Shown: positions 25,760 to 26,533 of the stretch, piece after piece | Numbering within the stretch: the first letter of the stretch is position 1 | Layout of the letters: each line of letters begins with the position of its first letter | From: Morchella semilibera | Taxonomy: Eukaryota > Ascomycota > Pezizomycetes > Pezizales > Morchellaceae | Assembly: GCA_009192285.1 (NCBI GenBank) | Contig: WBVU01000022.1 | Location: 124,001 to 188,000, forward strand | Direction: 5' to 3' | DNA length: 64,000 nucleotides | Made by a program: the position numbers and the translations under genes | The notes under the pieces: model-generated | The model's database searches: none | What the model was told of the DNA's origin: nothing | The model's input: the letters and a program-made list of their open reading frames with translations, nothing else

Positions 25760-26533
25760 AGTACGTATAATCTGTAGCGAGACATTATGTTTATGGAAAA
25801 TGCTAACCTTGTACTTTCCCGCGGGTTATAGTGCAAATGTGAGTTCTTATCGGAGAAACGAGATCACCGCCACCCCAGCAGAGAGCGAACTGACGAAATT
25901 TGGTGATTTAGCTTCGTCAAGACTTTGACGGGTAAGACCATCACCCTTGAGGTCGAGTCCTCAGACACCATCGACAATGTTAAGTCCAAGATTCGTACGT
26001 TACCTCCTCTCACTTGCGCAGCTGGAAATACTGGGGGTACTGGGCACTAGGGCTGACGCCCGGCAACAGAGGACAAGGAGGGCATTCCCCCAGACCAACA
26101 GCGTTTGATCTTTGCCGGAAAGCAGCTTGAGGATGGAAGGACTCTCTCGGACTACAACATCCAGAAGGTACGGCAAAAAATCATCTCGTGTTACGGCCAT
26201 TGTGGATCGGGGTGGATCGCGTGATGGATTGGATTTGTGGGGCGCTGGTTGCTGATTGGGGTCTTGGAATTGTTTAGGAGTCTACTCTCCACTTGGTCCT
26301 CCGTCTCCGTGGAGGTATCATTGAGCCTTCCTTGAAGGCCCTTGCCTCCAAGTACAACTGCGAGAAGATGATTTGCCGCAAGTGCTACGTTCGTCCCCCT
26401 CTCTATATATCCTGTTATAGTTACCAACTAACTGTTCCCTCAATAGGCTCGTCTGCCTCCTAGGGCTACCAACTGCCGTAAGAAGAAATGTGGACACACC
26501 AACCAGCTCCGCCCCAAGAAGAAGCTGAAATAG
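25760..26533 (+). CDS. ubi1: Ubiquitin-60S ribosomal protein eL40 fusion
   Basis: Six coding exons: 25760 (A of the start codon), 25832-25838, 25912-25994, 26070-26167, 26278-26388 and 26447-26533, encoding exactly 128 aa (76 ubiquitin + 52 eL40). Visible pieces are [46 protein letters not shown] and [20 protein letters not shown], ending [12 protein letters not shown]. The eL40 zinc-ribbon cysteines are all present. The precursor is cut after Gly76 to give ubiquitin and the ribosomal protein. No unspliced ATG precedes the CAA AT of codons 2-3: the genomic triplet there is GTG. The start codon is restored by joining the A at 25760 (donor GTACGT) to TGCAAAT (acceptor TTATAG, branch point GCTAAC). 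Confidence 0.95.

Follow-up and report, generated by a model that had tools for sequence, protein, structure and literature searches.

A ubiquitin-eL40 gene of Morchella semilibera whose start codon is predicted to exist only in spliced RNA

The start codon of the only eL40 gene found in the genome of Morchella semilibera very probably exists only in spliced RNA, apparently as a passive outcome of the intron crowding seen where ribosomal protein genes begin, with no dedicated switch involved. The gene lies on the + strand at positions 25760-26533 of the window, by which is meant the whole stretch of DNA that was analysed (64,000 nucleotides, C18:124001-188000 in the genome), and its start reads A (25760), TGCAAAT (25832-25838) and C (25912), an arrangement written below as A/TGCAAAT/C, with a slash wherever an intron boundary falls. 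The TG of the start codon occupies 25832-25833, and the genomic triplet that precedes codon 2 is GTG (25831-25833), not ATG, as a first-pass annotation of this DNA had also noted.

Results

Gene identity and product

The gene encodes a complete ubiquitin-eL40 fusion of 128 aa and contains five introns, which separate six coding exons of 1, 7, 83, 98, 111 and 87 nt that join into a coding sequence of 387 nt (Table 1). Translation of the joined exons gives a product with the N-terminus MQIFVKTLTG and the C-terminus LRPKKKLK, in which one ubiquitin with a Gly-Gly end is followed by a 52-residue eL40. In a whole-genome profile search the Pfam families ubiquitin and Ribosomal_L40e both matched at this locus, and eL40 chains in the PDB match the predicted product over residues 1-128. 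Ribosomal_L40e had two exon matches in the whole genome, both of them in this gene; since this is the only eL40 locus found in the genome, the gene should be functional.

The first-pass annotation had expected an annotation based on open reading frames to miss the start, and in the list of frames of at least 40 aa the first long exon does give only a TTG-started fragment. The Pfam ubiquitin match, which starts at model position 2, is consistent with a start that has been missed.

Table 1. Features of the ubiquitin-eL40 gene, in positions of the window
Feature	Position	Strand	Basis
Probable 5' leader with a provisional start, free of ATG	25583..25759	+	ATG positions 25400-25912
Exon 1, last base is the A of the start codon	25760..25760	+	sequence, exon joining
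Intron 1, 71 nt, interrupts the start codon after its A; three decoy ATGs inside (25787, 25793, 25800)	25761..25831	+	
Exon 2, 7 nt, TGCAAAT: last two bases (TG) of the start codon, Gln2, bases 1-2 of Ile3	25832..25838	+	
Intron 2, 73 nt, phase 2, codon 3	25839..25911	+	
Exon 3, 83 nt, residues 3-31 of ubiquitin, codons shared at both ends	25912..25994	+	
Intron 3, 75 nt, phase 1, codon 31	25995..26069	+	
Exon 4, 98 nt, ubiquitin up to Lys63	26070..26167	+	
Intron 4, 110 nt, phase 0	26168..26277	+	
Exon 5, 111 nt, ubiquitin end and first part of eL40	26278..26388	+	
Intron 5, 58 nt, phase 0	26389..26446	+	
Exon 6, 87 nt, eL40 end and stop codon	26447..26533	+	

Around the gene, the window has no Rfam match at the gathering cut-off. 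A neighbouring gene on the minus strand (27365-28012) is a relative of tRNA 2-thiolation protein 2, for which the best matches reach at most 83% identity over most of the query and named ascomycetes about 41-45%, among the best 120 of 224 matches. About 430 bases ahead of the gene start, at 25316-25334, stand seven C followed by twelve G.

Splice signals at the split start codon

All five introns have GT-AG ends and a branch-like motif, the position of which was taken as the last YTRAY match in each intron. Intron 1 carries the donor GTACGT, the branch-like motif CTAAC and the acceptor TATAG (genomic TTATAG), and intron 2 carries GTGAGT, CTGAC and TTTAG; the motif begins 29 nt ahead of the intron end in intron 1 and 22 nt ahead of it in intron 2; in introns 3 to 5 the distance is 17-26 nt. 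The exon bases beside the two donors (AGA/GT for intron 1 and AAT/GT for intron 2) are not the usual AAG or CAG. Read from the sequence, intron 1 has the form of a start-codon intron, with its donor directly after the A and the ATG restored by joining (A/GTACGT...TATAG/TG). The internal exon of 7 nt, which lies between introns of 71 and 73 nt that have full signals, falls within the range of about 3-30 nt that excerpts of a recent study give for microexons as internal exons (PMC11121469). A stwintron, in which one intron sits inside a splice signal of another (PMC6616335, in excerpt), was considered and rejected: each intron has complete signals of its own, and seven coding bases lie between the two.

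In the spliced mRNA the ATG would be directly preceded by AAAG, with an A at -3. The only genomic ATGs in 25400-25912 are those at 25441, 25580, 25787, 25793, 25800 and 25837.

Uniqueness of the gene model

The first-pass annotation had claimed that the ubiquitin frame cannot be started from an unspliced ATG, and both the reading of the frames and an enumeration of models agree. If intron 2 is kept, the frame upstream of codon 4 meets a TGA stop (25904) after two codons and holds no ATG; if intron 1 is kept, the frame ahead of codon 2 runs through the GTG back to a stop at 25804, again with no ATG. The enumeration took in the 600 nt upstream of 25912 and the models there that have at most two GT-AG introns, each of 40-250 nt, with ATG CAR AT/C as the target. 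With bare GT-AG ends as the only demand, exactly one model gives MQI, and this model is A/TGCAAAT/C.

The null case was represented by 2000 dinucleotide shuffles of the upstream DNA in which the last 9 nt were kept. Any MQI model at all appeared in 4 of the 2000 shuffles at bare GT-AG, and in none of the 2000 either under a modest donor and acceptor rule or under a strict rule for donor, branch motif and acceptor. When the strict rules were applied to 25400-25911 and MQI was not required, four candidate introns were found, and they yielded a single in-frame ATG model, which was again A/TGCAAAT/C. The split of the start codon into A and TG, the 7-nt exon and both flanking introns, which the first-pass annotation had proposed with these positions and motifs, are thus borne out by the joined 128-aa product and by the uniqueness of the model. 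From the sequence, we regard the gene model as nearly certain and infer the splicing itself. An assembly error is possible in a single genome, yet there is no need to invoke one.

Consequences of incomplete splicing

The possible splice forms were read on the assumption of a transcript that starts at 25590. In the fully spliced form the assembled ATG comes first and opens a frame of 128 codons. If intron 1 is kept, the leading ATGs stand at 25787, 25793 and 25800, with frames of 14, 12 and 20 codons; if intron 2 is kept, the frame is Met-Gln-Met-stop; if both are kept, the frame from 25800 has 42 codons and is out of the ubiquitin frame; and if the 7-nt exon is skipped, no ATG opens ubiquitin. 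Transcripts that begin before 25580 would include one extra ATG, at 25580. Every incomplete splice form examined lacks the ubiquitin frame, so no product would be made unless both introns are removed, and the eL40 gene is accordingly predicted from its sequence to be silent until introns 1 and 2 have both been spliced.

Other ubiquitin genes of the genome

The genome has 27 ubiquitin-domain matches, and the gene readings cover the polyubiquitin, eS27a, AN1 and eL40 genes. An unsplit ATG was found in the four other kinds of ubiquitin gene that were read, namely in two polyubiquitin genes (on C23 and on C6), in the ubiquitin-eS27a gene (on C12, in a stretch that recurs identically on C13) and in a ubiquitin-ubiquitin-AN1 gene (on C11). 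The suggestion of the first-pass annotation that the supply of ubiquitin could hang on correct double splicing is not supported in view of these genes with intact ATGs; it is the supply of eL40 that rests on double splicing, no second eL40 gene having been found in the genome.

Several features of these other genes deserve separate mention. Intron 3 of the ubiquitin-eL40 gene and the intron of ubiquitin-eS27a (L011 from 872) both fall in codon 31 at phase 1, and the sharing of this intron despite the unlike 5' ends of the two genes may reflect a common ancestral fusion or gene conversion between them. In the three stretches that were compared (L011 against L012 near 90 kb, L037/L038 and L039/L040; 8022, 7138 and 1678 aligned bases), C12 (1,576,628) and C13 (1,575,470) show 100% identity, and one of the two is probably a duplicate within the assembly, in which case ubiquitin-eS27a may be single-copy. 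In the gene on C11 (L013, about 790-1633, near 590 kb) an AN1 zinc finger (zf-AN1, E 6.7e-13) comes after two ubiquitin units; each unit has a Gly-Gly end, so the product might be processed like a ubiquitin precursor. The polyubiquitin gene on C23 (near 268.7 kb) closes with a diverged unit (L009, about 435-222 on the minus strand; LEAES, EGVPPN, LGDG, QEESA) that terminates in LHLVQ, without Gly-Gly.

Short first exons in other ribosomal protein genes

Five ribosomal families (PF01907, PF00833, PF01780, PF01283 and PF01246), hand-picked and not random, were searched for in the genome; they were chosen because their domains start near the N-terminus and because the yeast L37 gene has a very short first exon. 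The five families led to six genes, the starts of which were located by eye and checked by joining, and the names of which come from the Pfam family together with a reading of the N-terminus. The first coding exon has 17 nt in eL37 (with a second exon of 19 nt), 10 nt in eS17, 28 nt in eL43 (second exon 22 nt), 23 nt in eS26, 6 nt in eL24 and 26 nt in the Rlp24-like gene. In ubiquitin-eS27a it has 91 nt, which does not fit the crowding. In this small sample, six of the seven other ribosomal or ribosomal-like genes that were read therefore have a first coding exon of 6-28 nt, and a split start codon occurs in none of the seven. The arrangement at the ubiquitin-eL40 start had been called extreme, a description that holds for its size and less so for its kind, in view of these six genes; the 1 and 7 nt of ubiquitin-eL40 are the extreme of the intron crowding in this sample.

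Discussion

Proposed route to the start codon

Where fungal introns are short, the prevailing view is that the spliceosome pairs splice sites across the intron. Each of the short introns here has its own donor, branch-like site and acceptor, and the spliceosome would recognise them singly, across the intron, so that the 7-nt exon would need no exon definition. Introns 1 and 2 would probably be taken out successively, because the distance between them leaves no room for two spliceosomes at the same time. Translation would then begin at the assembled ATG, which would be the first ATG in the mRNA if transcription begins after 25582. Were intron 1 kept, the decoy ATGs would lead and would open short frames; were intron 2 kept, the result would be the peptide Met-Gln-Met and a stop; and skipping of the 7-nt exon would leave ubiquitin with no start. 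The parts of this account that we infer are the actual splicing, the order of removal and the absence of regulation.

Relation to known systems

The two components of the arrangement have precedents, which are compared here on the basis of excerpts of the papers cited. Yarrowia lipolytica has 42 start-codon introns, which form a recognised class, and in this yeast splicing works best for the introns that lie close to the start codon, while the genes that have introns there are the most highly expressed (PMC13309789). In these cases the donor directly follows one of the start-codon bases (A, T or G), as it follows the A in ubiquitin-eL40, but the excerpted account describes neither a second intron a few bases further on nor a ubiquitin-eL40 gene (PMC13309789). 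The L19 gene of a microsporidia alignment is likewise a ribosomal protein gene with a start codon interrupted by an intron, although it has one intron, encodes another protein and belongs to an intron-poor genome (PMC2685015). Among very small exons, one case is CYP621A of Fusarium, also in the Pezizomycotina, in which an ultra-short internal exon within a 139-nt intronic stretch has been confirmed by RNA reads; it differs in having 1 nt as against 7, and in lying within the gene and not at the start codon (PMC12940212). An 8-nt exon is described in a Phanerochaete P450 (PMC12940212) and a 1-nt exon in APC11 of Arabidopsis (PMC4674806). The 20-nt microexon of Xlr2 in Trichoderma virens is, like the exon described here, a short internal exon the exclusion of which alters the protein, but it is regulated by glucose and belongs to a transcription factor; according to its authors, writing in 2024, no functional microexon had previously been described from filamentous fungi, and few were known in fungi (PMC11121469).

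Among the matches listed for open-licence PMC, judged by title and the opening of the abstract, no paper deals with a split start codon of the ubiquitin-eL40 gene in filamentous fungi. In Saccharomyces cerevisiae the only intron of RPL40A and RPL40B (UBI1 and UBI2) lies in codon 3, after a first coding exon of 8 nt, and neither gene is known to have an intron inside the start codon. This position would match that of intron 2; intron 2 would then be old, with intron 1 as an addition.

No eL40 relative occurs among the 594 pattern matches in the collection of genome contigs. The viral contigs hold nine loci with ubiquitin relatives, of which L021 and L023 (477-nt matches) are intron-free tandem ubiquitins, uninformative for gene structure, and L022 matches residues 1-116 at 67%. 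A protein search with ubiquitin-eL40 listed 120 matches among 7969 scored, all of about 190-224 aa and so longer than the 128-aa fusion, and these are silent on gene structure. Two eL40 chains in the PDB, both presumably from Chaetomium thermophilum (now Thermochaetoides thermophila, Sordariomycetes), are the same over the aligned columns and differ at the N-terminus, 7olc_Lm having 128 residues and beginning MQIFVK and 7old_Lm having 127 residues with one residue before IFVK; the difference is a weak lead, which a gene model with its first exon in the wrong place would account for, as would other things.

Alternative explanations

The splicing of introns 1 and 2 could be regulated by such cues as growth state or an excess of eL40, with retention shutting off eL40 through the decoy ATGs and nonsense-mediated decay. 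The lack of a second eL40 gene, the non-productive nature of the incomplete forms examined (decoy ATGs or a three-codon frame) and the precedent of a regulated 20-nt microexon in Xlr2 of Trichoderma virens (PMC11121469) are all in keeping with such a gate, but non-productivity would follow from the retention of any frameshifting intron, the splice signals are ordinary, no competing strict site pair gives another start, and the highest splicing efficiency in Yarrowia is that of introns near the start codon (PMC13309789). A regulatory role is possible, nothing found points to one, and we judge the gate to be decidedly improbable. Somewhat less improbable, though still unlikely, is the view that A/TGCAAAT/C is old and conserved in the eL40 gene of this fungal lineage and has been kept to couple ribosome supply to spliceosome capacity; if it were true, the production of eL40 would be strictly conditional on two finished splicing events.

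The remaining alternatives dispense with the assembled ATG. Initiation with intron 1 kept, at the GTG of codon 1 or at another non-AUG codon, could draw on the open frame that runs from 25807 through the GTG into ubiquitin, but the three decoy ATGs would come first, intron 1 has a full set of splice signals, and its removal with intron 2 yields a perfect ATG CAA AT/C that is almost never obtained from shuffled DNA, so that we consider such initiation very unlikely. No more credible is a longer N-terminus, or an upstream ATG spliced straight to 25912 past the 7-nt exon: no support was found for it, 25400-25911 offers no further in-frame ATG model when at most two strict introns are allowed, and the first residues of ubiquitin are nearly invariant. 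A decayed copy that has lost its start would account for a frame that no unsplit ATG precedes, and this can be all but dismissed, given that the 128-aa product is intact, that all five introns have GT-AG ends and a branch-like motif, and that the locus is the only one for eL40 found in the genome.

Significance

The ubiquitin-eL40 start is a new example, near the extreme, of the combination of two known things, a start-codon intron and a very small exon; it is ordinary in kind and reveals no new mechanism. It offers a clean case, in which a start codon absent from the genome and a 7-nt exon come together in a gene that is highly conserved and should be essential. A gene finder would miss the N-terminus of ubiquitin-eL40 if it required an ATG in the genome or exons above a minimum size, and A/TGCAAAT/C could be used as a natural test of intron-defined splicing at adjacent short introns.
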